IMG/VR virus record: IMGVR_UViG_3300027709_000002
Span: 1 to 38,215 of that record
Length of the DNA stretch: 38,215 bases
Source of the DNA: a virus
Strand: one strand, 5' to 3'
Shown here: piece by piece, positions 1,842 to 38,125 of the stretch
How positions within the stretch are numbered: position 1 is the first letter of the stretch
How the letters are laid out: each line of letters starts with the position of its first letter
Translations under genes and position numbers: made by a program
The notes under the pieces: generated by a model
The model's database searches: none
Told to the model about the DNA's origin: nothing
The model's input: the letters and a program-made list of their open reading frames with translations, nothing else

Positions 1842-2583
1842 AGAATATGCATTGAATAAGTTTTATGCTTCTACGGATAGGAAGGTTACCCCGTTGATGC
1901 GTAGCAGTCCGTTGGCTAATACTTTTGGGTTGCCGGCAGGTAAAGAGTATTCGTGTAAGGATGCTACGGAGTGGTGTCTGTCAAATTGTTACGCAGGTAA
2001 AATTGAGCAGTTGTATTCTAGTGTGCGTGTGTTCTTGTTGCGTAATTGGGATGTGTACGAGGCTAATAAGCATTCTGTGAATGGGTTAACGGATGCGCTT
2101 ATGCCTATGATTAACAAGTTTATTGATGATTGTGAACGGTTGGGTGTTGAGCCGGTGTTTCGTTGGTTTTGGGATGGGGATATTCCTAGTCGTAGGTTCG
2201 CTAGGGCTATGCAGCGTGTGTCGTGTGATGAGCGTGTGGTGTCAAGTGGTGTCAGGTTCTGGGTGTATACCCGTAATTTTGATGTAATAGATTTGTTGTT
2301 GTTGCCTAATTTGACGGTGTATTTGAGTATTGATGCTGGGAATATGTTGAAGGGGTATAAGACTAAGCGTATGTATCCGTCTGTGAAGTTGGCACTTTGT
2401 GCGGATACGTGGGATGAGACTGCGGTGTTGGCGGACAAGTTTGAAGGTGAGCGTAGGGGTGCTAGGTGTCCTGAGTTGACTGGTAAAATTCCGTTGGTTG
2501 TTAGGGGTGTTGGTGCGTGTGTCGATTGTGGCATGTGCATTAGTGGCGTGAACAATGTACGTTTTGCGTCTAGTAAAAAATGA
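1834..2583 (+). CDS. GP88-family phage protein (Cys-rich, radical-SAM-reminiscent)
   Basis: A 249-residue protein resembling the GP88 family known from mycobacteriophages. An N-terminal Cys cluster C41, C48 and C52 precedes the signature FRWFWDGDIPS (residues 109-119) and WVYTRN (143-148). A C-terminal set follows: C212, C229, C232 and C235. The spacing of Cys suggests a metal or Fe-S cluster; the true biochemical role of the family is not established. I chose GTG at 1834 because GGAGG lies at 1820-1824 with nine-base spacing. An in-frame ATG at 1798 has no good ribosome site and would overlap the previous gene by 44 bases. Third codon positions are strongly T/G, unlike the replication genes downstream. 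About 60 bp of non-coding DNA follows it. Confidence 0.75.
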   Translation: MDKEYALNKFYASTDRKVTPLMRSSPLANTFGLPAGKEYSCKDATEWCLSNCYAGKIEQLYSSVRVFLLRNWDVYEANKHSVNGLTDALMPMINKFIDDCERLGVEPVFRWFWDGDIPSRRFARAMQRVSCDERVVSSGVRFWVYTRNFDVIDLLLLPNLTVYLSIDAGNMLKGYKTKRMYPSVKLALCADTWDETAVLADKFEGERRGARCPELTGKIPLVVRGVGACVDCGMCISGVNNVRFASSKK

Positions 2584-2642
2584 GTGCATAAGTAATATGT
2601 GTTGCATATTTTTTATGTGCCTAATCATATAGAGAGGAAATA

Positions 2643-3107
2643 ATGGAAATAAATGGTGAGGTCAATATAGAAATTGACCAATATGCGGATGTCAGTATAG
2701 AAATTGACACCGAAGACTTGGCAGAAACTCTTTGCCAAGACCACAACTTAGTGGATGATGTTGTCTTACGAGAGTATGTGAGAGAACAGATGGAAAATGA
2801 GTTGGATGACCGTGTTACAGAAGCGGTTCATCAAGAGACTCAGGAACTGCGTACCAATATGGAAAGTATGGCTGAAGAGTTAGATCAGTATGAACTGAGT
2901 GTGCAGGTCGATGACTTGGATAATAAAGTCGATGATCTCCATTATCAGGTGAAAGGGTTAATATCCCCAGAACCTGATAGCGACTACTCATACGTGAAAA
3001 CTTACGTACTGGATAACTATGTGCGGATCAACGATCTGCAAGCAACTATCAGAGAAGTGGTAGATGCTCGTTTAGTCGAGTTGCTTACCCTACTTGTAAA
3101 GGAGTAG
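2643..3107 (+). CDS. Hypothetical acidic coiled-coil protein
   Basis: A 154-residue, very acidic protein. Residues 45-110 are heptad-like (ELRTNMESMAEELDQYEL and following) and predict a long coiled coil. Residues 1-25 contain two similar short segments of the VNIEID / VSIEID type, perhaps a duplicated beta hairpin. It is preceded by AGAGAGG at good spacing. A weak promoter could sit in the 59-bp gap before it. No catalytic motif. An oligomeric scaffold or inhibitor would fit but is speculation. Confidence 0.65.
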   Translation: MEINGEVNIEIDQYADVSIEIDTEDLAETLCQDHNLVDDVVLREYVREQMENELDDRVTEAVHQETQELRTNMESMAEELDQYELSVQVDDLDNKVDDLHYQVKGLISPEPDSDYSYVKTYVLDNYVRINDLQATIREVVDARLVELLTLLVKE

Positions 3108-3109
3108 TA

Positions 3110-3370
3110 ATGAATAATGATATCCCGGTTGATGGAACTGTGTACCGTGAACGATTTGGGCGGTTGGAGAATTGGTGGGTTAACCCTGATGGTACTCTCA
3201 GCGGTAATGTCGTCAATTCTGCGTATGTTCCGAATGGTACGTGGATTACTACTGGTGCTTTAACGCACCGTTTTGGAAAGTGTGTGTATTCGGATGAGGC
3301 TCAGTATTTGTTGGGCTTCCCGATGGTTTTTGCGTTACCTAAAGAGAAAGGATGGGTAAGTCCATGGTAG
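3110..3370 (+). CDS. Hypothetical small protein
   Basis: An 86-residue protein, rich in Gly, Trp, Tyr and Asn, probably a small beta-rich domain. It starts one base after the previous stop region, using the AAGGAG that ends the upstream gene as its ribosome site, so it is translationally coupled. No recognised family. Confidence 0.6.
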   Translation: MNNDIPVDGTVYRERFGRLENWWVNPDGTLSGNVVNSAYVPNGTWITTGALTHRFGKCVYSDEAQYLLGFPMVFALPKEKGWVSPW

Positions 3371-3618
3371 AAGTAATTGAAACTTTCCTGTGGATTGCTA
3401 TAGGGGTGGCGCTTGCTGTGCCTCCTACTATGGCTATCTGTTACAGGGGGGAAAGAAAGCGGATAGAGCATTTGAAACACCTTTTCAAGGAGGGGTGTCT
3501 GAATGCGTTCAGAAGCCAATTAGCCGAAGCGATGATGCGACAGGCTGATAGGGAACAGCAAGCCGAGTATGCACTTGGGGTGCATCTTGAGGAAGAAAGA
3601 ATGAAAGAGAGGGGCTAA
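3364..3618 (+). CDS. Small single-pass membrane protein
   Basis: About 84 residues. One hydrophobic helix at residues 6-26 is followed by a basic turn (RGERKR) and a charged, helical cytoplasmic tail. This is an N-out, C-in type II/III topology by the positive-inside rule. An in-frame ATG at 3352 directly abuts the AAAGG and leaves no spacer, so I prefer 3364. It overlaps the previous gene by seven bases. Early phage genes of this type often act on the host envelope or in exclusion, but nothing here proves that. Confidence 0.6.
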   Translation: MVEVIETFLWIAIGVALAVPPTMAICYRGERKRIEHLKHLFKEGCLNAFRSQLAEAMMRQADREQQAEYALGVHLEEERMKERG

Positions 3619-3762
3619 ATGCCTATTGAAACAGACTCGCAAGAGTGGAGAAAAAATGTTATTAACAGCATCATACGTTTCTTGAGAGACAACGAGGAGT
3701 ATGGAGATGACTGGGGAACAGAAATTAAAGTGTTGAAATCTTTAATAGAAAAGGAGGGCTAA
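3619..3762 (+). CDS. Hypothetical micro-protein (47 residues)
   Basis: A 47-residue acidic helical protein ending in Lys-Glu-Gly. It follows the upstream stop directly and ends in a repeated junction (AAGGAGGGCTAATG) in which the Shine-Dalgarno sequence of the next gene encodes its last residues. Head-to-tail packing with the neighbours argues that it is real. No family recognised. Confidence 0.55.
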   Translation: MPIETDSQEWRKNVINSIIRFLRDNEEYGDDWGTEIKVLKSLIEKEG

Positions 3763-3887
3763 TGCCTGACATTTGTGAACAGATACAAGAAGATTTACTC
3801 ACATTCTTAGATGGTATGGAGTCATCCATACTCGATGGTGTGTGTCAAATAGTGGTGGACAATTTCAAAAAAGAAAGGAAGGGCTAA
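3762..3887 (+). CDS. Hypothetical micro-protein (41 residues)
   Basis: A 41-residue acidic protein with a helical N-terminal half and a basic end (KKERKG). Its start overlaps the upstream stop (TAATG) and its stop overlaps the next start the same way. The ribosome site GGAGGG lies at the end of the preceding gene. No family recognised. Confidence 0.55.
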   Translation: MPDICEQIQEDLLTFLDGMESSILDGVCQIVVDNFKKERKG

Positions 3888-4063
3888 TGGCTAGCAAACA
3901 ATGCCATATATGTGGACTGTCTGAGAATGTTTTCCTTTCATGGGAGAAATTCTGGCAGGTCACAGACCACAAGAACCAACAGGTGTGGGTGTGCTATGGA
4001 GACATGGTGAACCTTGACCCTATGGGTGATGGACAACTACAAGATCCTTTGAAGGAGGGCTAA
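3887..4063 (+). CDS. Small zinc-knuckle-like protein
   Basis: A 58-residue protein with CHIC at residues 6-9 and another Cys at 36, plus His 27, which could complete a zinc site. I start it at 3887, the ATG in the TAATG junction; a longer in-frame version from 3842 would overlap the preceding gene. Its C-terminus is Leu-Lys-Glu-Gly, encoded by the recurrent AAGGAGGGCTAATG junction. Similar small Cys-pair proteins follow at 4063 and 4215. Confidence 0.6.
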   Translation: MASKQCHICGLSENVFLSWEKFWQVTDHKNQQVWVCYGDMVNLDPMGDGQLQDPLKEG

Positions 4064-4230
4064 TGGGTATTGAAGATGAACTTACGTTCCATTCTCTTAA
4101 CACCCCCGAGGGTGACGCATTGTATAACGAGATGTACGGCTACTATCGTTGCGGTATTTGCAACAGGAGAACAAGCCGTCATCCATCTGCGTTGAGTAGA
4201 GATGGGGTGAAGATATGTCGGAAATGTTAA
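4063..4230 (+). CDS. Small zinc-ribbon-like protein
   Basis: A 55-residue protein with two CxxC knuckles: CGIC at residues 30-33 and CRKC at 52-55, the last Cys being the final residue. This is a complete four-Cys zinc ribbon separated by a basic loop (NRRTSRH). Such ribbons commonly bind nucleic acids or proteins. It starts at a TAATG junction with good GGAGGG and overlaps the next gene by 16 bases. Confidence 0.65.
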   Translation: MGIEDELTFHSLNTPEGDALYNEMYGYYRCGICNRRTSRHPSALSRDGVKICRKC

Positions 4231-4394
4231 ATGATTACGGGCATAGGTGGACTAATAGTTATGACGGGGACAATGTTGAATGTCAATATTGTGGCGACTC
4301 GTATAACAGCAAGAAGTGGTGTACTAATCGACTCGTTGTGTCTGAGCAAGACAGGGAGATGGATGAAGGTATGTCCAAGTACTATAACCTATAA
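4215..4394 (+). CDS. Small Cys-containing protein
   Basis: A 59-residue protein with CQYC at residues 23-26 and Cys 36. It is acidic toward the C-terminus. It overlaps the end of the preceding zinc-ribbon gene by 16 bases. An ATG at 4224 is an alternative start. I prefer this frame to a hydrophobic frame starting at 4231, because it keeps the Cys-pair pattern of its neighbours and the overlap habit of the operon. Confidence 0.5.
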   Translation: MSEMLNDYGHRWTNSYDGDNVECQYCGDSYNSKKWCTNRLVVSEQDREMDEGMSKYYNL

Positions 4395-4397
4395 ACT

Positions 4398-4421
4398 ATA
4401 TGCATGCATATGTTTTATAAT
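4398..4421 (+). promoter_or_regulatory. Possible promoter with 14-bp palindrome
   Basis: In the 88-bp gap before the gene at 4483, a perfect palindrome ATATGCATGCATAT (4398-4411) is followed at once by TGTTTTATAAT. The TATAAT (4416-4421) matches the -10 consensus exactly. No clear -35 is present, so the palindrome may be an activator or repressor site. It would drive the second group of early genes (4483-7692). Confidence 0.35.
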
Positions 4422-4482
4422 AGTGAAAGAAAGAGACTATTGATAGAGTATTAGTAGTCGTAATATTAAAGAGAGGAAAGCA

Positions 4483-4785
4483 ATGATAAAACTAAATAAC
4501 GGAGCCACTCCGATAGTGTGGCTGGTAAGAAATGGTGGCGAAGGAGAGCGTCCTTTTTGTGGCGTTCTTGTCGCTAGACCAATGGCAGGAATACACGCAT
4601 ATGTTTGTTGGAGTATGTACTCTGATGATGGTGAAGCATTTGATTGTGTGTGGGGTAACTATTGCCACACAATAGATGAGGCTATTGAATCATTCAATGA
4701 AAGGATTGCAGGTTCGATAGATGATGTTGGGATATACGAAAAAAGAAAGTACGACCAGTTCTTGAGGGGTGTGGAACATGTCTAA
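4483..4785 (+). CDS. Hypothetical protein
   Basis: A 100-residue mixed alpha/beta protein with several Trp, Cys and Gly residues in its first half and a charged C-terminal helix. GAGAGG precedes the ATG. It is the first gene after a possible promoter. It overlaps the next gene by eight bases. No recognised family. Confidence 0.65.
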   Translation: MIKLNNGATPIVWLVRNGGEGERPFCGVLVARPMAGIHAYVCWSMYSDDGEAFDCVWGNYCHTIDEAIESFNERIAGSIDDVGIYEKRKYDQFLRGVEHV

Positions 4786-5053
4786 AACTGAAATCATAGT
4801 AGGACATGTGGGTGTTGACTCAGGCACTATTCTCATAACCGATCCTTGTTACATCAAAGAGGACTACGACTATGAACAAGTGGTTGAACCCACCCTTCAA
4901 AACTTATGGAGTCACACCCTTAACGGCTTGGGATTTATCACAACTTCAGGCTACGGAGATGGGTACTACCCAGTTTATGCGACTGTGCGAGAAGATAAGG
5001 ATTGGGGCGCTCGTGTTGAAAGTGTCACGATCAGATTTATGGAGGGTGTGTGA
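4778..5053 (+). CDS. DUF4241-like small protein
   Basis: A 91-residue protein. The pattern GVDSGTILITDPCYI near the N-terminus, then GYGDGYYPVY and a final hydrophobic strand, recalls the DUF4241-like folds found in phages and bacteria, in which a Gly-Asp-Gly-x-Tyr-Pro-Val-Tyr segment is typical. The biochemical role of that family is not established. I chose ATG 4778 over GTG 4769 because GAGGGG sits eight bases upstream of it. The stop overlaps the next start (TGATG). Confidence 0.65.
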   Translation: MSKTEIIVGHVGVDSGTILITDPCYIKEDYDYEQVVEPTLQNLWSHTLNGLGFITTSGYGDGYYPVYATVREDKDWGARVESVTIRFMEGV

Positions 5054-5328
5054 TGTCCGACAAACCGAAAGTTCCTGAGTACGACCTTGAAGGTTGGTTT
5101 TACCGTGTGAGTAAACGTGTCCGCCTTCAAGACTGTTGGGGTGGAAGTGACTTGGCACTACTATTAGATCTGTTTGTCTTGTATTTGGGTTGGTCTACAC
5201 CAATAGAACCCGACGTAACTCCTGAAATGATTTATTACGCTAGTGGGATGGAAGACAGTCGAATAACAGATCTTTTAGATGGTCTTGAAAAAGAAACGGG
5301 TATACCTTATCCGTTCGATATTAAATAG
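5053..5328 (+). CDS. Hypothetical protein
   Basis: A 91-residue acidic, mostly helical protein with a hydrophobic stretch (residues 33-46) too short and mixed to be a clear membrane segment. The start overlaps the upstream stop in TGATG, with GGAGGG six bases before it. It is followed after 12 bp by the DUF932 gene. The alternation of strong ribosome sites with overlapping starts suggests high early expression. Function unknown. Confidence 0.65.
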   Translation: MSDKPKVPEYDLEGWFYRVSKRVRLQDCWGGSDLALLLDLFVLYLGWSTPIEPDVTPEMIYYASGMEDSRITDLLDGLEKETGIPYPFDIK

Positions 5329-5340
5329 AAAGGAGACTGT

Positions 5341-6255
5341 ATGAATAATACGGTTCTTGAAAGAAGCGAGGCGTTTTATGCTCGTGAAATAATGGGTGAT
5401 GCTGGGGCTTTGTTCCCTGTGCATTATCCAGCAGCACAACATCATTGTCTGCGAAGAGAAGACGCTCACATCCCTGTGATTGAGAGCGGCGTTTACAAGG
5501 GTGAACCTTTATACAAGTTCGTTGTCCGTGAGGACACGGGGCGTGTAGTCGGGTTACACTCTGGTAAATATCCTGAAGTTGATGGATATCAGATGCTTGC
5601 CGACATGGCAGACATGATGTTCCCTCTATCAACTACGTCCTGTACACTCTGGGGGGCAGGTGAAAGAGTTGCTGTTACGCAACAACTTTCGGACTCCATA
5701 GATCTTGGGGGTGGAGATACAATCCAATCCCATTTAGTGTGGATCAGTTCCTTAGATGGTTCTTGGTCAACTAGTGTGTACGACATGCAAAGCAGGTTCT
5801 TCTGCCAAAACCAATTAGTGGGTAAAGCACTATTGAAGGTTAGGCACACGAAGAACCACGATGAAATCTTTGAGATGAAAGCCACGATTGTGAAGCAGGC
5901 TGCTGAACAGGCGCTTGCTTGGCAAGGTAAGGCTCTCATGTTGAAGCAACAACCTATGATTGATTCAGAGTTTTATGAGTTAACCAGTCAGTTGTTGCCT
6001 TTTGAAGATCACATGTCTACCCGGAAAGAAAACTCTATCAACGAGGCTCGTGGCTCAATGAGGCGACGCTGGTTCGAGGAGAAAGAACAATGGGGTGAAG
6101 GTAATGGTTGGCTTGCTTGGAATGCTATTCAAGGTGCCGAGCAGCACACTGTTAACGCTGGACGTAACCGTGATAAGGCTAAGTCATTGCAGAAGGCTCT
6201 TGAAGGTAAAACTCCTTTGGCTAACAAAGCAATGAGTTTGATACTGGCTCAATGA
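5341..6255 (+). CDS. DUF932 (phage/plasmid-like TIGR03299-type) protein
   Basis: A 304-residue protein of the DUF932 type, widespread in phages and plasmids. The diagnostic part is RFFCQNQLVGKALLKVRHT (residues 152-170), preceded by a beta-rich domain (residues 40-145) with GAGERVAV. The C-terminal third is helical and basic. Length is normal for the family. AAAGGAG precedes the ATG with good spacing. Members lie in early or replication-adjacent phage regions, and an anti-restriction or DNA-binding role has been suggested; none is proven. The stop overlaps the next start (ATGA). Confidence 0.8.
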   Translation: MNNTVLERSEAFYAREIMGDAGALFPVHYPAAQHHCLRREDAHIPVIESGVYKGEPLYKFVVREDTGRVVGLHSGKYPEVDGYQMLADMADMMFPLSTTSCTLWGAGERVAVTQQLSDSIDLGGGDTIQSHLVWISSLDGSWSTSVYDMQSRFFCQNQLVGKALLKVRHTKNHDEIFEMKATIVKQAAEQALAWQGKALMLKQQPMIDSEFYELTSQLLPFEDHMSTRKENSINEARGSMRRRWFEEKEQWGEGNGWLAWNAIQGAEQHTVNAGRNRDKAKSLQKALEGKTPLANKAMSLILAQ

Positions 6256-6470
6256 TGAGTAGAAATCACAGAGAAGCAACAGCAACGATATTAGTAACAA
6301 TAGAATATGATGTTGAGCAAACATTTGACAATGGTGTCTCTATACATGATATGTGTGACAACTGGGATGAATGGATAGAACTACCTGAAGGGTGTATGCC
6401 TAAAGAATGGGATTACATCGAGGTAGAGATATCTAAGATTGAATGCGAAGGGGAAGAATGGTATCGATGA
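6252..6470 (+). CDS. Hypothetical acidic protein
   Basis: A 72-residue strongly acidic protein with alternating hydrophobic strands at both ends (TATILVTIEYDV and YIEVEISKIE), suggesting a small beta-sheet domain. Its start overlaps the DUF932 stop (ATGA) and its end overlaps the next gene. The acidity and beta-edge strands resemble small DNA-mimic or inhibitor proteins only in a general way. No family recognised. Confidence 0.6.
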   Translation: MMSRNHREATATILVTIEYDVEQTFDNGVSIHDMCDNWDEWIELPEGCMPKEWDYIEVEISKIECEGEEWYR

Positions 6471-7696: not shown

Positions 7697-7781
7697 GTCC
7701 GCCACCATGGCATGGCATGTGGAACCCGTTGGGTTCATTGTACATGCCATGCCATGCCATGCGCGGATAGTGTGGTAACAT
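7697..7781. promoter_or_regulatory. ATGGC/GCCAT iteron palindrome before the replication block
   Basis: After GTCCGCCAC (7697-7705), three overlapping ATGG/ATGT units (7706-7720) pair perfectly over 15 bp with ACATGCCATGCCATG (7742-7756). A further GCCAT follows to 7760. The loop itself folds as GAACCC-GTT-GGGTTC (7722-7736). TAACAT (7776-7781), a possible -10, precedes the start at 7789. The same pentamer array and a nearby GTAACAT occur at 38.1 kb before the small terminase. This may be a promoter/operator, a replication origin or both. Confidence 0.65.
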
Positions 7782-7788
7782 AAAACAA

Positions 7789-8613
7789 ATGACCGAAGCG
7801 ACCAACACAGACGACAGAATAATTCTCCGACAATCATGGCTAGGTTCCTTAGCGATGTGTCCAGAGAGAGCCAGACAAGACCTGTTAGGCATCTCAGAAT
7901 CAACAGAGTCCACCAACACTGCAATAGGCACAGCAGTCCACTATGGGATAGAACAATGTCTCACAGAGAAAATGGAAACAGGCGATCCTCTTTCCAAATC
8001 TGAAACCATCTCAGCCTCATTAGAAGAATGGGTTCGGAAAGAACCTGAGATAGTTGGATGGAACCATAAGACAGATGAGTGTGTAAAAATAATTGAACTC
8101 AACACGACAGCGTGGTGGGATGAGGTAATGCCCGACATTGATCCAATAGCCGTTGAGCAACACTTTGAACTACCACTCATAGTTGATCACGAACCCGAAA
8201 TCTGGTTACAAGGAACGATAGATTGTGTTCAATCTTTTCCACGTCCAATAGTGGATTGGAAAAATCCGGGACGTAAACCATCAGATGACTGGGAGAAGAA
8301 ACGATGGTCGGTGCAAGCAGCCGCATACACTTGGGCAGTATTACAAATGTCGGACAACTCTCTGACAGAACCTTTAGATTTTGAGTTCGTACACCTAGTC
8401 AAAGGCAAGGTGCATAGAACTTTAGTGAACGTAACACCAGCAGAGCATGCAAGTCTGGTCGCTTTAGCGCGCTCTGCTGGTACACTCATAGCCGCAAACC
8501 TACCTGTATGGCCGTTAAACATGGTCGGATGGCACTGCGCCCCTAAATGGTGTGGTGCTTGGAAAACATGCAGAGGGAAAATTGCGGGAACAGACCCATG
8601 GAACCAACTATAG
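7789..8613 (+). CDS. Cas4/RecB-like PD-(D/E)XK nuclease with Fe-S cysteines
   Basis: A 274-residue protein. GTAVHYGIE (residues 47-55), Asp 145 in GTID, Asp 156 and Lys 158 in VDWK, and Gln 176 in the VQAAAYTW helix make the catalytic set of the RecB/Cas4-type PD-(D/E)XK fold. Cys 24 and the C-terminal Cys 250, 255 and 261 are spaced as the four ligands of a 4Fe-4S cluster. It is thus a predicted exonuclease for DNA ends, likely in recombination and replication. Length is normal for phage Cas4-like proteins. It starts the replication block, directly after the ATGGC palindrome. No CRISPR genes are nearby, so adaptation is not its role. Confidence 0.85.
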   Translation: MTEATNTDDRIILRQSWLGSLAMCPERARQDLLGISESTESTNTAIGTAVHYGIEQCLTEKMETGDPLSKSETISASLEEWVRKEPEIVGWNHKTDECVKIIELNTTAWWDEVMPDIDPIAVEQHFELPLIVDHEPEIWLQGTIDCVQSFPRPIVDWKNPGRKPSDDWEKKRWSVQAAAYTWAVLQMSDNSLTEPLDFEFVHLVKGKVHRTLVNVTPAEHASLVALARSAGTLIAANLPVWPLNMVGWHCAPKWCGAWKTCRGKIAGTDPWNQL

Positions 8614-8629: not shown

Positions 8630-9202
8630 ATGGGAGAAAAAGATAACACCTTCACGGTGTTCCGTAGACAGGTCATACAGACCGGCAAATTTGAACCGGC
8701 GGAAGCGTCGTGTTCAGTCACCGTCACCCTTACAGGTGATGAGGATCAGGAGGCAGTAGCCAACTTAATAGCCGAGTGGGGTACGACCTTAGAGATAGCC
8801 AACTATGAAGCGTTGGGTGTCGGATATGAAATGACAGAATCAGGCGTGCGGAGGTTGGAAAAAAGTATTTCCCAATCTGATGCGAATGATTCCGTGGCAC
8901 CATCAACCACGGGGAATACAGCCCCAGCCGCTCCTGCTATCGGAGGCAGCGGAATGGACGCAATTTGGCGTGACTTGATGAACAACAAAACACAGTGGTG
9001 GGATCCCAACTGGGAAAAGAAATTAGACCCTGCCGCTAACTTTAATAAGAACGGTCCTGACTATAAACGTCGGGCTGATGGTAAGGGCATTTGGCTTACC
9101 AAAAAGGATGGCTCCTCACTAGTCCCTGACTGGTTTGTGTGTCCATTCACTGGTAAAGATGCTAATCAACTTGCCGAAATAGGCACGAGTATTCGAGCCT
9201 AA
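8630..9202 (+). CDS. Hypothetical protein, possible single-strand DNA-binding accessory
   Basis: A 190-residue protein. Residues 5-70 look like a beta-rich domain. A Ser/Thr/Ala/Pro linker (82-110) leads to a Trp/Lys-rich C-terminal domain (112-190), with WWDPNWEKKLD and DYKRRADGKGIWL. Trp and Lys rich modules beside a helicase and nuclease suggest DNA contact, but I recognise no named SSB fold or acidic tail. The ATG at 8630 has AAAAGAGG upstream; a longer in-frame reading would overlap the nuclease gene. It lies 14 bp before the helicase. Function unproven. Confidence 0.65.
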   Translation: MGEKDNTFTVFRRQVIQTGKFEPAEASCSVTVTLTGDEDQEAVANLIAEWGTTLEIANYEALGVGYEMTESGVRRLEKSISQSDANDSVAPSTTGNTAPAAPAIGGSGMDAIWRDLMNNKTQWWDPNWEKKLDPAANFNKNGPDYKRRADGKGIWLTKKDGSSLVPDWFVCPFTGKDANQLAEIGTSIRA

Positions 9203-10179: not shown

Positions 10180-11188
10180 CAGATATGACGACGAAATTAT
10201 TGAAGGATTCGCTGACCTATTCCGAGGCGGTAAGATAGCAATAGACACAGGTGACTTCAGACCATGGACAAACCACGACGGCACGTTCATAGAAGCACAA
10301 GGTGAAGAATACTTAACTAAAATAACAGATCACCTCCACGCCGACCCAGCCATCGGAGTGTACCCACTATTCGCAGAAGAAGACGGACTGAAAGTCTACT
10401 GGGGGTGCGTCGACTTCGACGAAGGAATACAAGAATCATACACACACGCAAAAAACGTACACCAAATACTAAAACAACTAGATGTACAATCTTGGATAGA
10501 GCGATCACGTTCCAAGGGATACCACCTTTGGGTGTTTTTCACCACACCCATGTATGCACGAGATGTACGTGCAGGACTACTCGCTGTGTGCGACATCGTT
10601 GAAGCACCAACAAAAGAAGTAAACCCCAAACAAGTAGAACTCTCAGAACGAGGATGGGGAAATGGTGTCCGCCTACCCTACGCAAGTAACCGTCAAAGAG
10701 GAGGCTACAACGAGATGGATAACCCCGAATACTCCTTCTCCATGGTACCAGTAGCGACTTTCGTAAAAGATGCTATACCAAACCGTGTGACACCTGAAGC
10801 GTGGGAGCCTGTGAGAGCCTTATACAAGCCTCCTAAGCCGATTGAAGTACCCGTTCCTACAGTATCCTCATCAACACCATTACGGGGACTCTCAAAGGCT
10901 ATACGAACAAATGGTCCTAAAGGAGGCACCTCCGGTGACAGGTCAAGAACCCTCGTGGCATTAGCCTGTTCCATGTTTAGGGAAGGGTATGACAAACCAA
11001 CCATCTATTATGAACTAAAGTCTGCTGATAAGGACTGGGGCGGAAAATATGCTAACCGTACAGACGGAGAAAAAATCCTGTGGAAAATAGTAAATGACTA
11101 CGAAAAAGTTGCGTGGGAAAACGACGAATATTACAAGCGTCGTTATCAACAGAAAACCCAAGGTCAAAGCAAGACCGAGACACACTAA
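10169..11188 (+). CDS. Archaeo-eukaryotic (TOTE-like) primase
   Basis: A 339-residue protein with the archaeo-eukaryotic primase core. VDFD (81-84) provides metal-binding acids, SRSKGYHLWVFF (113-124) is the conserved basic-hydrophobic strand typical of TOTE-type primases, and PKQ...GNGVRLPY (153-171) closes the active site. A C-terminal helical part (about 250-339) resembles the PriCT-like helices that follow such cores. It should make primers on single-stranded DNA for the overlapping helicase. GGGAGGAG precedes the ATG. The last 95 bases also encode the start of RusA in another frame. Confidence 0.85.
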   Translation: MLTNRYDDEIIEGFADLFRGGKIAIDTGDFRPWTNHDGTFIEAQGEEYLTKITDHLHADPAIGVYPLFAEEDGLKVYWGCVDFDEGIQESYTHAKNVHQILKQLDVQSWIERSRSKGYHLWVFFTTPMYARDVRAGLLAVCDIVEAPTKEVNPKQVELSERGWGNGVRLPYASNRQRGGYNEMDNPEYSFSMVPVATFVKDAIPNRVTPEAWEPVRALYKPPKPIEVPVPTVSSSTPLRGLSKAIRTNGPKGGTSGDRSRTLVALACSMFREGYDKPTIYYELKSADKDWGGKYANRTDGEKILWKIVNDYEKVAWENDEYYKRRYQQKTQGQSKTETH

Positions 11189-11486
11189 GAGTGGACATGT
11201 ATTCACACCAAAAACCACACTCGATGAAGAAGGTTGTGTAGCACAAGCATGGGAAGAGCAAGTAGGCAAAACATTAACAGGACCATTAGAAATAGTGTTG
11301 GTATACAGTCCAACTCAAACGATACTACATGTGATGCAATCACCACATGGATCGAAAACATTAACAGGGGATCTGGACAATTACATCAAGTTGACATGCG
11401 ATGCATTAAACGGGGTGGCGTGGGAAGATGACAGACAAATCGTGCGAATCAACGCCGTTAAGGTCGACAAACTTGATAGTGATTAA
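11094..11486 (+). CDS. rusA: RusA-type Holliday junction resolvase
   Basis: A 130-residue RusA-family endonuclease, near the usual 120-140 residues. KVKARPR (23-29) forms the N-terminal strand and basic patch, GDLDNYIKLTCDALNG (92-107) carries catalytic Asp 93 and Asp 95, and DD at 112-113 provides the third acid. It resolves branched DNA before packaging. The KARPR strand lies before position 11188, so the long out-of-frame overlap with the primase (95 bases) is genuine. No clear ribosome site precedes ATG 11094; TTG 11109 is the only in-frame alternative that keeps the domain. It probably depends on coupling to primase translation. Confidence 0.85.
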   Translation: MTTKKLRGKTTNITSVVINRKPKVKARPRHTKSGHVFTPKTTLDEEGCVAQAWEEQVGKTLTGPLEIVLVYSPTQTILHVMQSPHGSKTLTGDLDNYIKLTCDALNGVAWEDDRQIVRINAVKVDKLDSD

Positions 11487-14079: not shown

Positions 14080-17000
14080 TCAACGGTTCTCAAAAGACTT
14101 CCAAACGTCACGTTCCCTAGCCTTAGCAATCGATTTGCGAATCTCTTCACTGCGCTGTCTACGAGGAGTGTTAATACGGACACTCACACCACCCAACGTG
14201 GACATAATAGTCTGAATCCAAGTCTCCTGAGTCTTCTCATCTTCAGGGATGAGACGACGGAACCTACCCAAGAAAGGCAGCATGTTTTCAACAATCCCTA
14301 ACTTTTTGTCATTAACCATCCATTGACCTTTATTATTCTTATCAGCCCACCCAAGCATCTGCAAAGAATGCGCCATTCCCGGCATGTTCCGAATCATCAC
14401 AGGCAAAGGCACATACTCATCCATGTACGGGATGCCAGCAAAAATCTTTTTACCAGCCCAATATTCAATAGGTGTTTTAAGGAAAGGAGTAGCACCAGAA
14501 AAAACCTGCTCCAAAGCAGCGCCGCCACCTTCACGAGTAGGATCCATTCTGAACAAATCCTGCAAAGGTAAATCAGGAGTCCCATAAGTAACTGCACCAT
14601 TTATAGTCCAAGGTAACTGAATGTTGAAATTCTCCAAGAAGTAATGAGGGACAACATCCTCTTTCTCCTCCCCATATTCCAAATTACGTTTAACAGCCAT
14701 CAACCGATTAAACTTGCCCGGATTGCGAACCAACAACTCTGCTTGCAACGGCAAATTCTTACGAGTCCAAGTGTAAAATGGGAAGAAACGTTTACCATAT
14801 TTTTTCTCAATCGCAGACAAGCCGCCATAATTAAAATGCAACTTGTAAATCAACTGCAACGCCTCGTCCAAATTACCACCCGTTTCCAACACATGCATAC
14901 CAGTGCTTAAACGCATCAAATTCTCAGCGAAAGTATTCGCATGACGAACACCAGCAAAAAGAAAGAAACCAGAATCTAAAGGATTGAAAGTAACACGAGC
15001 CTGCCGATAAGGATTCTCGGAAGTGCCAACAACATAATCTAAAAATCCGGGTTGACCTAAATCAATATCCACAGAAGACGCAGCCTGACCGCCACCATGA
15101 CCACCATTGCTGACGATATCCCACGCCCTCTTATACTCCGCATAATTAGGATCACTTTTCTTAGTGTTCTTCAACAACGTTTGCAAACCCAACTCAAAGT
15201 TTCCCTGACCTTCCTTATATGCTCTTTGCATCAAAGGAATAGTTTTCCAAGTACGAGAAACAGGAACATCAGCGAACCACATGTTAGCCATACCCCCAAA
15301 AATATTTCTCATAACAAAACCCGGAGTAGCAACCATCTGAGCCTTCATCCAATTATGAACCCTGTCATACCCCCTAATGAACCCTTCAACCTGCTCCCTG
15401 TCATTCATTTTCTGAGTAGCGATCATTGCATCAATAACACTGTCCGCCATATAAGTATCACCAGCAATCAGCCAAGGACCCCACATTTGCCTAGCACTAT
15501 TATTAAACATGTCTCGCAACTGATCGGCTGTGAGATTATTCAAATCATAACCACCACCAAACGAATTAAGATTAAATGCTTTGTCATTCTTAGGACCCAA
15601 CTCGGCAGCCAATTCCTGAGCGAAACCATGCCTTTCTCTTTCAGCAACAGTCAACTGAGCCTCTGTATCCGCCGCTCGTGCAATAATATCCTCAACAGCC
15701 TGCTGCTCTTTAAGAAGTTTTTGCTGTGCCTTAACTAACCGTTGGTCATAAAAGTATTGTTTCTCTAACAACTCTTTAACTTCCATCTCAGTTCGCATTA
15801 TTCGATCAACAATCCGTTGACGTTGCTCATCCATATGTGCAACAACACGGGTACCTGTAATGAACTCACCTATTTGAATGGCATCGTAGTTCATCGAGTT
15901 GGTCATAGGCGGACCATGCTTAATCTCACCTTTAACCGTTTTCAGTATTGTATCTAAATCTAAAAAATGTTCCAAATTCCAAACATCAGGACCTAAAGAA
16001 GACGTTGGCTCAACTATTGCAGAAGGTCGACCATCAATGAGGAGATCATCGCCTTTTCGCGCACTTTCCTCCATCAAAGCCCGCAACTCCTGCCAAAACT
16101 CTTCACCCCTCACATCAGGATGACGAAGCCTTGTAACACCACCGGCACCATATCCACTACTTTCCCCATAATAAGAATCAGGAGTATCATCCCAATAAGA
16201 TGCCCAACGGGTTTGTCTACGACCATCTACCGCCCGCAACGCAGGATATGTAGCAGCGTTATAATCCATCAACCCCTGTTCAATCGTTATCCAAAAGTTT
16301 TGCAACAACTCGTATAGGTGCTGTGTATCTACTGGACTTCTCGTACCAGCATCTGTTATACCATACATGGTAGGCATATGCGACGAAGCAGTACCCCAAC
16401 CATAACGGTCAGTACTCAAGGCTTCCACAAATTCACGATTCGCTCCACTCATCCGAGGCAAATTCAACCCAGCAAGACCCCGCTCTTTCACAGAAGGAAG
16501 TATCAAACCTTCAGGCATCAAATTTCTCATCAAATGCGACCACTTGCCATCATTCTGAGAAGCCAACTCTAAATAAGTTTTATTCAAACGCTCTAACGTA
16601 GACCACACATCGTCAGACAACCCAGAAAGCCAATCTGTTTGCAAAGCATTATTCACTGCACCTAATTCTCGAATACTTGCAACAAACTTCTCAACCATTT
16701 GCAACTTTTTATCAGGATCAACTGGTTGTGGAGTAACCGACCATTCAGGATACGAAACACCACCTGTTTCCGTAGGAGCGGACTTTTTGAAGAAACGCAT
16801 AACCCGCGGCACAGCCTTTGTTTCACCGGCTGGAACCACCCACACATCACCCTGCATACCACGCACAGCGTAAGCGCCACCATCGTTAACCCAATCAGGC
16901 TGATTCAGATCTAAACCACGAGTAGGTCTTCGTGACACACTCACCTCACCGCCAAATGGCTGCTCCCACATATATGCTTCTGTAAGAGGCTCATCATACG

Positions 17001-20000
17001 GTTTTACTCTAAACCCTACTGCACCATAGTTTTCGGCTCGAACCATGTCGGCTCTCCACACTCTCATCGCTTTGTTTATTTCATATTTCCACTCTTCAAT
17101 AGCATCTACCGCACCGTCTTCAATAGCCTCTTTTAGAGTCGTATAAGGACTAGAGTTAGCCATCGTGTAACCTGAATCTGCTAACGCATCAAACCTTGCT
17201 AACATCTCTGGTGGCATCGTGCGATTAATCAAATCATCGGCAAAAAGTACGGTAGGTCCACCTCCTGTGAAAAAATCACGCACATCGGGATGAAACTGCA
17301 CAGATTCAACCCCCACCTCAACCTCGAAACGCGCACCGGTCAAATTCACTTCCCTATTTACCACATTACCCGCAGGGTCTATAACCTGTTCAGTTACCGT
17401 TTCCGCTGTTCGTACCATTTTCGTTTTGGGTGGCAACACAAGAGCCGCTCGTGCTGTAATGTCACCTGAAGTACCACCAACGAGTGATGCGGCTTCATTA
17501 AGCCCCATCTCACTCAAATTAAACAATTTTGTTCGGGTCATCTGGCTACCAGCGGCAGAAGTGGTCATTTCCATTCCCGCCCTGTCCGCCGCATACAAAA
17601 GCGTCGAATCAATCCATTCAAATAAATTCTCAAGCAACTTTCCAGTAAGAAACCCTGTACGCATAGGCTGAAGTTCTTGCAACTGAAACAATATGTCACC
17701 ACCAGATCCGGATCCCCCGAAAAAATCCCAACCTACACCAATCGAACTAGTAGACATATTGGTATGCAAAGTTAGAATTTCCGAGGCATCCTCCCATCCT
17801 CCGACCATTACGCCCGTCTCTTCTGCAAGATTTCCTAATTTGTTGATATATTCATGCAACCCCTCCAACGACTGAATCATACGATTTCGCATAGGATGCC
17901 CACTATGTTCAATCACATTTCTTAATGTTCTACCACCAAAAGCAGGGATGGCAACATCTATACCAACCATAAGAGGATCTAAAGTATTTTCATAATTCCA
18001 CATGGCAGCCTCAGTAAGAGGAATCGTACCGGGAGATAAATTACTCAACCCATCATCAGACATGGCTGTACTTATAATAGCACGATCAAAAACATCCGAG
18101 AACTCTGATATGGCACCTTGTCTAATCGCATCAATGGAACCTTGTGAAGTGACGTTAAGATTGTCAAGAGCCGATTGTATAGATTCAAGACTTTGAATAG
18201 TTCTGTCTCGAAGAACCGTGTCTTCCAACAAACTCTTAAGGAAAGGAAGCATAATACTTTCAATATCACCTAAATTGGCAGCAATGTCCGCACCTGATCC
18301 GTTGAGAATTTCACTGATAAACGTTTGTGCTTCGGAGGCGGACAGTGACAGCATCTCAAGTGCCTCTTGATCAGAACCGGACGCAGTTGATGTCCAAAAA
18401 ACATCAAGATCAATCTTCTCTTGTTGCACCGCCGTAGCCAAATTTTCCAACAACAATTCGTGCGTTTCGTTCATCTTTCCTAAACCTTCACGTATCGCAC
18501 TCACTCTTGTTAACAGACCTCTCAACTCCTCCATCGCAGGAGCCAACTCTTGAACAGCGTTAATTGCAGCACGTTGCGGGCTTCTCGGAGGACCATTAAT
18601 AGGGTAACCTAAAATATCCACCAAAAGTTTAGAAGAATCAGGAGTGTCAACGATATTGTATATACCTAAAATATCTCCAATTTGTCGGATCTTCATTTGT
18701 AGCACATATTCCAAATTGAGAACTTCAGCATTTGTTTCAAATAACTGTTCTAGCAAATCACCCCAAATACCACCCGAACCACTCCCACTAGTACCCCGCC
18801 TAGAGGTACTACCAGACGGTAAATCTATACCGCTTCCTGATAATTCAACCGTGTTTTCATCACCCACCAGCCTCGAAAGAGCATCATCTATCGCCTGTAC
18901 ACGACTCTCAATAAATTCTATACTGCCACGACCACCACCAGCATGTTCAACACCTTCCAAAACAACAGCATCCTGATACTGGCGAGCCACAACAGCAGCA
19001 CGAGCAGCCTTCTGTTCATCAGTCAACTTGTCTAACTCTTCACTAAGATCACGAACAGTGTTCTCCAACGCTTCCAACACATCAGCATTCTGCTTCCAAG
19101 TCTCAGCATTAAACAAAATACCCCGACTAGCCAAATACTGTTCCAAACCACGCAAATTAGCGTCATGCGACAAAGCATTAGCACGATACGCTCTACGTTC
19201 AGCGAAACCCTGCAACCAAATAGACTGCCCCTCCTCCAACCAGCCTCCCTGAATTAAAAGATCATCTATCTGTTCCGCCACAGAACGATTCAAAGGATCT
19301 GCAAGAGGATTGTTCGCATTCGCTCGGATACCACTACCAATCTCCGCAGATCGCGTAGCACTTTCCCGTTCACTCAAATCTCGTAAAATAGTTATTTTAG
19401 ATTCAGGATCAGCAGGATTCCAATCAGGATTTAAACCACGTTGCGTGTAAATAATCTCCGATGCCTGTGATGGCGCATTTACGGTACCCGGAGTGCGTAA
19501 AGTACCAACTATCTCTTCACCACCATCTTTCGCAGGAACACGTATAACTTTCCCATTTATCAAATTTCCATCAGAATTAACATGAGAAGGTACAGTTCCA
19601 CGTTCCCTTATAGGACCAACACGAGGACGGGATCTACTCAACACCTCCTCTTGCCTGCCAGCAGCAGCCAACTTTTCATCAAAAAGAGCATCTTCAACAA
19701 AATCGGACAACCAACCTATGTTACTCCAATCCTCACCATAGATCGCCCGAAGAATGACTCGACCCTCTGGGGAAAGAACCATACCTCCGCCATAACCGCC
19801 ATAAGCGTTAAGGTTTTGTTCCACCTCTTGAAAAAATTTACTTGTAGGTTTACCCGCTTCATCAAATGCAAGTCCATACAAATTGTCACGAGCCAACATA
19901 ACCAATTCAGGTTCCTCAACCTGCTCCAACAACATACGTTTAATCGTACCGATTTCTTCCAAAGTCAAATTAGGATACTTTTGTTTGATCCGATTAATAC

Positions 20001-21438
20001 CTTCTACAGTTATTGTCTGCGGTCCATGTGCAGATGGGAAAATAGATTGAGTGTCCGATCCGCCTATTCCCAAATAAGCAACCCAATCAGGTTCCAACTC
20101 GATCTGACCTAAAGTTAAATTGTCAACATTGGGATAATCTTTAACAACCTGATTCTGAACCCGATGCGTCGTTTTACGCATACGTTCACCCAAATAAGCA
20201 CCCAGCATATTCCCGCGGTCAAAACCAGAACGTAACTCGTTCGACAAAAGAATATCATCCACATTCCTACTACGAGCAAGAGTTCTCGAAGCGCGTTTAG
20301 TTTCCCTCTTCCTCTTATTCCACGCAGCAGCCTCTTCCCTAGGACTTTGCGAACGTCTCAATGCGTCCACATACTGCGTTTGAGGATCAACAAACAAATT
20401 CTTGAAAGCCTGCGCTCCTCGTGTAGTCGCAACCTTCTCATACATCATTCCCGGACCTGACATTATAGAAGCAGCAACACCGCTACCCAAAGGAAACACA
20501 CCTATAGGCAACGTATCAACAGGCACACGTGCAGCACGTGTTATAAGTTGACGTGCTTCATCAGATAAATCCGCAGGTAAATCTTTTAAACGTTTACGTT
20601 TCTGAGCGTTGAAAACCATCTCGTTCAAATCCATCGAATCATCAAAACCCATAGTCTTCAAACGTTGACGTGCAGTCGTAGGAGCATCCGCAGAGCCGAA
20701 AGCCTGCCTTGCACGTTTCCTAGCCATTAAACGAGAATCACGAGTTAACCTTCCCAGAACAGGACCAGTACCCGGAACTCTCCAACGCAAACCAGTTTCA
20801 ATACCCAACTCATCGATAAGTTCCTTACCGACTTTGCCATGCTTCCGAGCCAACACATTGCGAGCAGCAGAAACACTACGGTGCGTACCAACAGCCTCTA
20901 TAGCAGCCTCAACCGCTAATTCTTTAGCGCTCTTAGCCTTACCCACACCTTTATACAACTGATTCCGTAAAAAAGTTAAATCAGTCAGCAGTGCCTCCCT
21001 ACCGCCTATACGGGCATAAGCGCCCAAACCGCCAGCCCAAGACAAAGGATCTAAAGCAACGTCCCCCGCTAAACCTAAAGCCCGATTACCCCACTTGCCT
21101 AAATCAATACCTTCATCGTGGATTAGTTCACCGAAACCATAATGATCCGATATTTGATTACGGAAATCATTCCAACTGAACCCTTCACCTTGAAACAAGT
21201 CGATTGTTTCTTTCAAACCAGAAGTAACAAGAGAACGTGGGAAGTCAATTGCGCCAAGGATTTTGCCGAAAATACCTCCGCCGCCTCGTGAAACTTGTTG
21301 CGCTCCACGGGCTGTGGGAGTGTACGGCATTGAAGCAAGACGCTCCATGGTTGTTTTACCAACAGGCGCACCTGATGATGGAATTGGTGCTACCCCTGTT
21401 TTAACTATTGCTTGGAGAGCCTCATTGATGGCGGACAT
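14080..21438 (-). CDS. Giant internal virion / ejection protein
   Basis: A 2,452-residue protein that takes up 19 per cent of the window. The N-terminus (about 45-150) has AIDFPRSLVTSGLKETIDLF and GDVALDPLSW, a segment recurring in giant phage internal proteins. The C-terminal 550 residues contain PGFVMRNIFGGMANMW, FNYGGLSAIEKKYGKRFFPF and YTWTRKNLPLQAELL, also typical of large proteins that are ejected with DNA. The middle contains coiled-coil parts (about 790-870 and 1800-1880) and Ser/Gly linkers near residue 860. No enzyme motif was certain. It probably forms the internal core and a trans-envelope conduit, like T7 gp15/16. GAGGAG at the end of the preceding gene is its ribosome site. Confidence 0.8.
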   Translation of the reverse strand: MSAINEALQAIVKTGVAPIPSSGAPVGKTTMERLASMPYTPTARGAQQVSRGGGGIFGKILGAIDFPRSLVTSGLKETIDLFQGEGFSWNDFRNQISDHYGFGELIHDEGIDLGKWGNRALGLAGDVALDPLSWAGGLGAYARIGGREALLTDLTFLRNQLYKGVGKAKSAKELAVEAAIEAVGTHRSVSAARNVLARKHGKVGKELIDELGIETGLRWRVPGTGPVLGRLTRDSRLMARKRARQAFGSADAPTTARQRLKTMGFDDSMDLNEMVFNAQKRKRLKDLPADLSDEARQLITRAARVPVDTLPIGVFPLGSGVAASIMSGPGMMYEKVATTRGAQAFKNLFVDPQTQYVDALRRSQSPREEAAAWNKRKRETKRASRTLARSRNVDDILLSNELRSGFDRGNMLGAYLGERMRKTTHRVQNQVVKDYPNVDNLTLGQIELEPDWVAYLGIGGSDTQSIFPSAHGPQTITVEGINRIKQKYPNLTLEEIGTIKRMLLEQVEEPELVMLARDNLYGLAFDEAGKPTSKFFQEVEQNLNAYGGYGGGMVLSPEGRVILRAIYGEDWSNIGWLSDFVEDALFDEKLAAAGRQEEVLSRSRPRVGPIRERGTVPSHVNSDGNLINGKVIRVPAKDGGEEIVGTLRTPGTVNAPSQASEIIYTQRGLNPDWNPADPESKITILRDLSERESATRSAEIGSGIRANANNPLADPLNRSVAEQIDDLLIQGGWLEEGQSIWLQGFAERRAYRANALSHDANLRGLEQYLASRGILFNAETWKQNADVLEALENTVRDLSEELDKLTDEQKAARAAVVARQYQDAVVLEGVEHAGGGRGSIEFIESRVQAIDDALSRLVGDENTVELSGSGIDLPSGSTSRRGTSGSGSGGIWGDLLEQLFETNAEVLNLEYVLQMKIRQIGDILGIYNIVDTPDSSKLLVDILGYPINGPPRSPQRAAINAVQELAPAMEELRGLLTRVSAIREGLGKMNETHELLLENLATAVQQEKIDLDVFWTSTASGSDQEALEMLSLSASEAQTFISEILNGSGADIAANLGDIESIMLPFLKSLLEDTVLRDRTIQSLESIQSALDNLNVTSQGSIDAIRQGAISEFSDVFDRAIISTAMSDDGLSNLSPGTIPLTEAAMWNYENTLDPLMVGIDVAIPAFGGRTLRNVIEHSGHPMRNRMIQSLEGLHEYINKLGNLAEETGVMVGGWEDASEILTLHTNMSTSSIGVGWDFFGGSGSGGDILFQLQELQPMRTGFLTGKLLENLFEWIDSTLLYAADRAGMEMTTSAAGSQMTRTKLFNLSEMGLNEAASLVGGTSGDITARAALVLPPKTKMVRTAETVTEQVIDPAGNVVNREVNLTGARFEVEVGVESVQFHPDVRDFFTGGGPTVLFADDLINRTMPPEMLARFDALADSGYTMANSSPYTTLKEAIEDGAVDAIEEWKYEINKAMRVWRADMVRAENYGAVGFRVKPYDEPLTEAYMWEQPFGGEVSVSRRPTRGLDLNQPDWVNDGGAYAVRGMQGDVWVVPAGETKAVPRVMRFFKKSAPTETGGVSYPEWSVTPQPVDPDKKLQMVEKFVASIRELGAVNNALQTDWLSGLSDDVWSTLERLNKTYLELASQNDGKWSHLMRNLMPEGLILPSVKERGLAGLNLPRMSGANREFVEALSTDRYGWGTASSHMPTMYGITDAGTRSPVDTQHLYELLQNFWITIEQGLMDYNAATYPALRAVDGRRQTRWASYWDDTPDSYYGESSGYGAGGVTRLRHPDVRGEEFWQELRALMEESARKGDDLLIDGRPSAIVEPTSSLGPDVWNLEHFLDLDTILKTVKGEIKHGPPMTNSMNYDAIQIGEFITGTRVVAHMDEQRQRIVDRIMRTEMEVKELLEKQYFYDQRLVKAQQKLLKEQQAVEDIIARAADTEAQLTVAERERHGFAQELAAELGPKNDKAFNLNSFGGGYDLNNLTADQLRDMFNNSARQMWGPWLIAGDTYMADSVIDAMIATQKMNDREQVEGFIRGYDRVHNWMKAQMVATPGFVMRNIFGGMANMWFADVPVSRTWKTIPLMQRAYKEGQGNFELGLQTLLKNTKKSDPNYAEYKRAWDIVSNGGHGGGQAASSVDIDLGQPGFLDYVVGTSENPYRQARVTFNPLDSGFFLFAGVRHANTFAENLMRLSTGMHVLETGGNLDEALQLIYKLHFNYGGLSAIEKKYGKRFFPFYTWTRKNLPLQAELLVRNPGKFNRLMAVKRNLEYGEEKEDVVPHYFLENFNIQLPWTINGAVTYGTPDLPLQDLFRMDPTREGGGAALEQVFSGATPFLKTPIEYWAGKKIFAGIPYMDEYVPLPVMIRNMPGMAHSLQMLGWADKNNKGQWMVNDKKLGIVENMLPFLGRFRRLIPEDEKTQETWIQTIMSTLGGVSVRINTPRRQRSEEIRKSIAKARERDVWKSFENR

Positions 21439-38105: not shown

Positions 38106-38125
38106 GGCGACATATAAGTAGACAC

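Follow-up and report, generated by a model that had tools for sequence, protein, structure and literature searches.

Why should a run of small viral genes be joined, one after another, by nearly the same short sequence? The question is raised by IMG/VR virus record IMGVR_UViG_3300027709_000002, which was analyzed whole (38,215 bases, hereafter the window). It carries an array of four micro-genes of 41 to 58 amino acids at positions 3619–4230, each entered through a repeated stop/Shine-Dalgarno/start junction, here termed a seam. A preliminary description, made without database searches, proposed that such a junction between unrelated micro-genes could be a recombination seam that lets small cassettes be gained or lost without breaking coupling. 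It predicted that cassettes should differ in number and order among relatives, with conserved junctions.

Results

Micro-genes and seams of the window

The array belongs to a run of small genes (F, G, H, I, J, K, and L) on the + strand of positions 3110–4394, with the following features.

3110–3370, + strand: gene F, 86 amino acids; its relatives in contigs L238 and L240 end in a seam, and the window copy does not
3364–3618, + strand: gene G, 84 amino acids; immediately precedes the array and supplies the left half of seam 1 with its 3′ end
3609–3621, + strand: seam 1 (G to H), GAGGGGCT-AA-ATG, then CCTA; 6 of 8 core positions
3619–3762, + strand: cassette H, a micro-gene of 47 amino acids with a relative in L017
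3753–3764, + strand: seam 2 (H to I), GGAGGGCTAATG, then CCT
3762–3887, + strand: cassette I, a micro-gene of 41 amino acids
3878–3889, + strand: seam 3 (I to J), GAAGGGCTAATG, then GCT
3887–4063, + strand: cassette J, 58 amino acids, CxxC-bearing
4054–4065, + strand: seam 4 (J to K), GGAGGGCTAATG
4063–4230, + strand: cassette K, 55 amino acids, CxxC-bearing
4215–4394, + strand: gene L, 59 amino acids, CxxC-bearing; begins with the patch MSEML

The claim that the junctions at four sites are nearly identical was confirmed, with seam 1 looser than the others. The 14-mer AAGGAGGGCTAATG occurs exactly at positions 3751–3764 and 4052–4065 and with two mismatches at 3876–3889. Each joint holds the last two codons and the stop of the upstream gene together with the Shine-Dalgarno sequence and start of the next. 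It had also been claimed that the Shine-Dalgarno sequence codes for the last residues of the upstream protein, Lys-Glu-Gly or similar, and this held (the proteins upstream of the four seams end in KERG, EKEG, ERKG, and LKEG). The further claim that the stop overlaps the next start held at three of the four junctions (H–I, I–J, and J–K, by 1 nt); at seam 1 the stop TAA abuts the ATG without overlap.

With up to three mismatches allowed, the 14-mer has 7 matches in the window versus 3.05 expected, and 7 matches were reached in 2 of 100 shuffles, an excess that taken alone is weak evidence. The core GGAGGGCT plus start joint, with at most one mismatch, was found three times on the gene strand of the window, never on the other strand, and in none of 20 shuffles.

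Comparison with relatives by the Nei-Gojobori method (pairs of 62–99% identity and at least 25 codons, no more than six listed per family) gave dN/dS values of 0.48 for H, 0.16 for J, and, against the window copy, 0.06–0.21 for K. Other families gave 0.13 (f43) and 0.28 (f45), with weaker values for f30 (0.48–0.74) and f37 (0.79–0.92). Cassette I was without a relative in the 24-contig set described below. CxxC pairs are present in several cassettes, and the MSEML patch that begins gene L also begins a GP88 gene (L041) and family f27 (L237 and L241). For H, I, J, K, and L, no Pfam match was obtained up to an E value of 0.1 and no PADLOC match up to 0.01, and a PHROG search of the small genes yielded marginal matches only (J, 0.0056; L, 0.037 or worse). 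An RNA family search of positions 2500–5400 returned none, and promoter and terminator scans of the same region were at chance level, with no site within 3619–4230. A near-perfect palindrome, TATAAACTATATGCATGCATATGTTTTATA, lies at positions 4390–4419, where gene L and the run of small genes end, and is followed by an AT-rich intergenic stretch. It was the single inverted repeat found in a search restricted to the window and lies off the seams (minimum length 18, exact seed 14, such that imperfect 17 bp repeats could escape).

Gene order in related contigs

Relatives were found by searches with window proteins M, P, and D and by alignments of D and L, and L157 came in through a scan for the seam pattern. 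The resulting working set comprises 24 contigs including the window (238,273 nt). Genes in the relatives were obtained with a custom gene caller, supplemented by 47 genes added by homology and two more at seam junctions (L237 at 7777, where f43 meets K at a GTG start, and L157 at 4946, where the gene is open to the contig end). A seam-like site inside gene W of L239 (position 5029) was excluded from the counts. We also used a set of 12 less redundant contigs, consisting of the ten that bear seams plus L241 and L041, within which identity still reaches 93.9% over 2594 nt (L235 and L238).

The block of variable gene content in the window is flanked by two genes.

1834–2583, + strand: gene D, Pfam GP88; left flank of the variable block
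5341–6255, + strand: gene P, Pfam DUF932; right flank of the variable block

The backbone order of exonuclease, W, helicase, primase, and RusA is constant across relatives, whereas the order of the small genes is not. The window has the order B-C-D-E-F-G-H-I-J-K-L-M-N-O-P, and L036 has B-C-D-E-F-x-J-x-x-L-M-N-x-x-P, where x denotes other genes. In L017 the order is D, two other genes, H, f13, f13, L, E, two other genes, and P. The variable block lies between D and P in the window and before D in L007, L008, L012, L040, L237, and L240.

The prediction that cassettes vary among relatives while junctions are conserved was thus met in the 23 related IMG/VR contigs: order and content differ, the seam is kept between unrelated genes, neighbors are seldom kept, and an empty site joins G to K without H-I-J. 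Named phages gave no DNA match to positions 2400–6300 and none to L, and only two distant matches to the helicase. Genome contigs queried with the helicase in a search for the host gave no relative, and nothing was found with gene F as a query. A viral scan with f13 returned five loci, all on contigs of the working set.

Consensus and distribution of seams

The typical cassette is one small ORF that ends in GAG GGC TAA, TGA, or TAG, with ATG (most commonly ATGCCT) directly after it. The consensus of the joint is GGAGGGCT, then A, G, AA, or AG, then a start that is mostly ATG-CCT. We call a seam strong when 7 or 8 of the 8 core bases match. The exact core precedes the start joint at 19 of 146 variable-region junctions versus none of 250 backbone junctions. 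Strong seams number 29 in the variable region, on ten contigs; in the backbone, the five junctions with 7 of 8 core positions represent one orthologous site on five contigs. At most variable-region junctions (111 of 146), fewer than six of the eight core positions match.

One joint links many unrelated genes: clustering the genes that follow the 29 strong seams at E < 0.01 gives 17 clusters, irrespective of coverage. In 25 of the 29 cases, EG forms the C-terminal end of the upstream protein. Stop and start overlap by 1 nt at 18 strong seams and abut at 9; at the remaining 2 the start lies 11 nt inside the upstream gene, which is out of phase.

The second codon played no part in picking seams. 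It is nevertheless CCT at 19 of the 29 strong seams; among non-seam junctions of the variable region the figure is 6 of 111, and in the backbone it is 1 of 250. Fourteen of the 17 downstream clusters have a CCT member and none has a member with another proline codon, although CCT makes up 38% of proline codons. When 336 pairs of seams flanked on both sides by unrelated genes were compared, identity across the three positions of the second codon was 0.51, 0.79, and 0.85, versus 0.24–0.38 in two controls. Note that the analyses of second-codon identity, block ends, attC boxes, proline codons, motif-free clustering, and shared lengths are based on 27 strong seams rather than 29.

Clustering of junctions between unrelated genes without reference to any motif (L003, L005, L008, and L012 left out) recovers the seam, along with two smaller junction classes in the same island, GGAGCAATGATG and GGAGGTGAGTGATG. 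Junctions of these two smaller kinds, GGAGGTGAGTGATG-like and GGAGCAATGATG, were observed between unrelated small genes at L240 6749, L040 3292, and L040 3506 and at L235 4082, L235 4231, and L240 5856.

Over the full length of the 24 contigs, the exact pattern GGAGGGCTN{1,2}ATG occurs 20 times, on 11 contigs; every site is on the gene strand, and the backward control has none. The best array is that of L235, in which f30, f45, and six further small genes (36–66 amino acids, the last being f13) are connected by seven successive joints, all with 7 or 8 of 8 core matches. Two L235 seams have 21 identical bases in common. Exact identity shared between unrelated seams has a median of 10, a 90th percentile of 15, and a maximum of 36 nt, compared with a control median of 6 and 90th percentile of 8 nt in samples of 40 backbone and 40 non-seam junctions.

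Single seam-like junctions are common in unrelated phages, and it is repetition that sets the group apart. A scan with GGAGGGCTN{1,2}ATGCCTA returned at least 120 loci; of 120, 4 belong to the group and 116 are unrelated. Of the latter, 111 start an ORF of at least 30 amino acids, and 25 have an upstream ORF ending in the seam stop. GCT occupies the three positions after GGAGG at 20 of 45 GGAGG-N3-N1/2-ATG sites in the 24 contigs, at 0 of 25 in 38 more distant relatives, and at 0 of 23 in 28 still more distant ones. With the scanned match masked, it was found at 2 of 117 such sites in 117 pattern-scan loci, and one of those two belongs to L211, a group contig. The contrast per contig is modest, with a maximum of 3 copies in the group (L040 and L235), compared with 2 copies of any single kind in controls.

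Turnover of neighbors across seams

Gene neighbors turn over faster across seams than across other junctions, although few joints are testable (11 strong). For families that also occur elsewhere in the 24 contigs, the same downstream neighbor was retained across strong seams in 4 of 45 comparisons, whereas other variable junctions gave 243 of 662 and the backbone gave 1936 of 3035; for the upstream neighbor the values were 4 of 55, 243 of 633, and 1936 of 3181. The 12 less redundant contigs gave, for downstream and upstream neighbors, respectively, 4/38 and 4/55 at seams, 97/345 and 97/330 at other variable junctions, and 246/429 and 246/454 in the backbone. Counted per joint, 4 of 11 testable seam joints recur on another contig, whereas 64 of 79 joints elsewhere in the variable region and 227 of 228 in the backbone do so (24 contigs; Fisher P 0.0038). 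In the less redundant set, the values are 4 of 11 for seams versus 45 of 62 for other variable joints (Fisher P 0.025). All four kept seam joints come from one block, E-f43-K, common to L019 and L237.

Before the last two genes were added, neighbors were kept in 131 of 372 and 131 of 345 comparisons at non-seam junctions touching seam families. At three other GGAGG junction types of the variable region, again before that addition, they were kept in 26 of 71, 84 of 126, and 32 of 128. The possibility remains that the seam marks a hot spot without causing it.

Joints that resemble exchange products

One candidate for an exchange within a seam is in L241, where G joins K directly and H-I-J are absent, versus G-H-I-J-K in the window. 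To the left, the joint retains the G-specific GAGAGGGGCTAA and corresponds to the end of window gene G (GAAAGAATGAAAGAGAGGGGCTAA); to the right, it retains the K-specific TGGGTATTG and corresponds to the start of window gene K (CTAATGGGTATTG). Therefore, H-I-J are either missing there or were gained in the window, and the change took place inside the seam. The joint has only 6 of 8 core positions, and the exact identity of the parent seams at this empty site is limited to GGGCTAA.

Other joints also resemble exchange products. L036 has a gene with a G-type 3′ end followed by J, without H or I. The f30 3′ end and its seam precede three different genes (L017, L040, and L235), and F leads through a seam to f45 in L238 and to an HNH endonuclease gene in L240. 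On six contigs, K is preceded by five different genes (f43 twice).

Ends of similarity blocks were compared with gene starts and seams in 13 of the 24 contigs, with each block counted from both sides and seams defined by at least 6 matches. Block ends lie within 15 nt of gene starts in 169 of 431 cases on the left and 121 of 381 on the right (43.6 and 38.6 on average at random); for seams, 63 and 55 ends fall within 16 nt, versus 10.7 and 9.3 at random. Some block ends lie slightly inside genes. Different bodies carry the same start patch (MPTYEDSNV-, MPIETD-, or MSEML-) or the same end patch (-GVHLEEERM). The joints at L238 6849 (f45–K) and L235 5293 are imprecise, with the upstream gene out of phase. 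Because of these two out-of-phase seams and the shared block E-f43-K, neither coupling nor turnover is absolute.

Backbone genes and other observations

Two backbone genes are candidate recombination functions.

7789–8613, + strand: PD-(D/E)XK nuclease (PHROG exonuclease)
11094–11486, + strand: RusA-like Holliday junction resolvase

Gene W (8630–9202) was considered as an annealase beside the exonuclease, and this assignment found no support, with no Pfam or PHROG match up to an E value of 0.01. Its structure model is weak (pLDDT 70.8, pTM 0.42), with no PDB match at E 0.001 or better. W is conserved between exonuclease and helicase, and its position alone makes it a candidate single-stranded DNA–binding or annealing partner. 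Scans of window proteins against PHROGs and Pfam revealed no integrase (not every ORF was scanned, and the record is possibly incomplete), and no tRNA genes were found in the window.

Several further features were observed. A repeat with CATGCCATGCCATGC occurs at 7740–7762 and 38118–38140, about 30 kb apart, and a similar stretch, which reads as f26, adjoins the exonuclease gene in several relatives; it may perhaps be a replication or packaging site. HNH endonuclease genes are present at L240 6282–6749, behind an exact seam in the variable region, and at L239 2394–2816, further downstream, and it is conceivable that the L240 enzyme drives local recombination. The window also encodes a phosphoadenosine phosphosulfate reductase (36175–36972, PHROG 424). 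On its minus strand (14080–21438) lies a single reading frame of 2452 amino acids, far above the other genes in size, which by its position is likely to specify a virion or injected protein.

Discussion

Seams as putative exchange points

We favor, with moderate confidence, the reading that the window represents one version of a hypervariable micro-gene island in a group of uncultured tailed phages, and that its joints serve both as coupling signals and as exchange points. That seams promote exchange is inferred. The evidence consists of metagenomic contigs without read data, and recombination itself was not observed and is hence inferred from sequence comparison. The recombination-seam proposal of the preliminary description is supported to this extent, the alternative to promotion by the seam itself being that it marks where functional products survive.

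A crossover or slippage between two copies of the seam, within one genome or between co-infecting relatives, would remove, insert, or swap whole cassettes, an inference drawn because the cassettes share the joint. The product would retain stop, Shine-Dalgarno sequence, and start in the right phase, and with the Shine-Dalgarno sequence in the end of the upstream gene and an overlapping stop, the new gene would be translated by coupling. Likely agents, which are inferred only, would be phage or host annealing and recombination functions (the PD-(D/E)XK nuclease and RusA) or replication slippage. Homologous recombination at the seam is likewise an inferred maker of the joints; the empty site is consistent with it, and the shared lengths are short. 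For RecA and Red, about 30 bp has been quoted (PMC2327257), and most seam–seam identity is below that. The shortness of this identity therefore favors slippage, annealing, microhomology, or help from neighboring patches. A region with a longest identical run of 11 bp was among those assayed elsewhere (PMC3945230).

A bolder reading, to which we give rather less credence than its opposite, is that of an integrase-free cassette system with a single universal seam (stop, Shine-Dalgarno sequence, and start) by which any two micro-genes of the island are interchangeable. Arrays would grow, shrink, and reshuffle by short-homology recombination, the products would stay translated, and patches such as MPTYEDSNV-, MPIETD-, and -GVHLEEERM would lengthen the homology and yield chimeric genes.

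Alternative explanations

The alternative to our preferred reading of seams as exchange points that survives best is a start-associated signal, in which the motif is kept for translation initiation, coupling, or binding of a regulator, turnover occurs by other means, and new genes carry or acquire the motif. This remains possible. The motif sits at the ribosome-binding site position and in this resembles the start-associated sequences (SAS) of cluster K mycobacteriophages, which also recur in front of accessory genes that are unrelated to one another (PMC3203893). With respect to the 16S rRNA tail, GCT after GGAGG provides no further pairing, whereas GGAGGTGA would. A specific function of the motif is therefore conceivable. 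However, most small-gene junctions of the region lack the motif, the motif tracks neighbor turnover, and start and end patches that extend beyond it are reused on different bodies. A plain Shine-Dalgarno constraint was rejected as the whole explanation, since conservation of GCT behind GGAGG and of CCT behind ATG is confined to seams.

A second alternative is illegitimate recombination followed by selection, in which breaks occur anywhere, only products with an intact stop, Shine-Dalgarno sequence, and start survive, and breakpoints merely look aimed. This is the favored model where no boundary sequence is seen (PMC3029335, PMC3233612), and the imprecise events in L238 and L235 are of the kind that it allows. 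Nevertheless, we consider it unlikely, as it does not predict one shared sequence at unrelated joints that includes GCT and CCT, which are unneeded for initiation, nor does it predict that neighbors are kept less often at seams than at other GGAGG junctions of the variable region.

Tandem duplication and divergence, whereby an ancestral micro-gene multiplied in place and its copies retained only their ends, draws some support from cassettes with a start or part of the body in common (MPIETD..., MPTYEDSNV..., and ETD..YLERVVKE). It is very unlikely, given that the 17 downstream clusters have differing bodies (CxxC-bearing, acidic, HNH endonuclease) and that whole cassettes recur in other contexts. 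Chance or an assembly artefact, which the shortness of the sequence and the metagenomic origin of the contigs might suggest, is all but ruled out by a window count reached in 0 of 20 shuffles, a strand bias of 20 to 0, a pattern present on ten contigs, and dN/dS below 0.5 for H, J, and K.

Relationship to known systems

The SAS and extended SAS (ESAS) elements (PMC3203893) resemble the seam in that a short repeated sequence containing a Shine-Dalgarno element lies upstream of the starts of different gene families, mostly in one orientation and in one part of the genome. The seam meets this description in so far as a repeated motif occupies the ribosome-binding site position at starts of unrelated accessory genes in one orientation. 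Membership in SAS was rejected, since the 13 bp consensus GGGATAGGAGCCC has 5 matches in the window, each with 3 mismatches, versus 5.14 expected, and none at the seams. The seam is also unlike SAS in that both the upstream stop and the start codon are part of it, it extends as far as the second codon, and it marks sites of gene turnover. For SAS, a role in translation initiation was proposed rather than exchange, and ESAS consists of 17 bp inverted repeats at about half of SAS sites (PMC3203893).

Integron gene cassettes, which are also found in phages (PMC9892861), are similarly interchangeable arrays of genes with a common joining element. The joint of the present array lies inside coding sequence, unlike that of integrons, and the window proteins scanned include no integrase. 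The integron reading was rejected, as a pair of attC-like boxes was found at 0 of 27 seams (−70 to +40) versus 41 of 2600 random stretches, although this was a simple pattern test only. Morons (PMC3029335) resemble the cassettes as extra genes in one phage that are absent from a relative. However, they carry their own promoter and terminator, for which cassettes that overlap by 1 nt or abut have no room; this criterion is unmet in the window.

The closest likeness is to mosaicism at boundary sequences (PMC3029335, PMC3233612), in which a conserved short sequence is present at gene boundaries where modules differ and has been proposed as an exchange site. Seams meet two of its criteria, with modules that differ at gene boundaries and a short conserved sequence located there. 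They differ in that one sequence, itself stop, Shine-Dalgarno sequence, and start, serves many unrelated cassettes in series, and any seam can therefore in principle pair with any other. The nearest single example found is Island3 gene 67/68, with a shared 18-residue C terminus of about 50 bp (PMC3029335). We file the seam array as a variant form of boundary-sequence mosaicism; no report of such a seam was found in the open-access literature searched (subscription papers were outside the scope).

It has long been disputed whether recombination at short boundary sequences produces phage mosaicism or whether breaks occur at random and are then sorted by selection (PMC3029335, PMC3233612, PMC3945230). 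A boundary repeated in series, together with an empty site and a measurable link to turnover, makes this dispute testable on one defined sequence. The seam suggests a simple design by which an operon accepts a small gene and expresses it at once, and the gain and loss of cassettes at seams could show how phages swap genes without breaking them.
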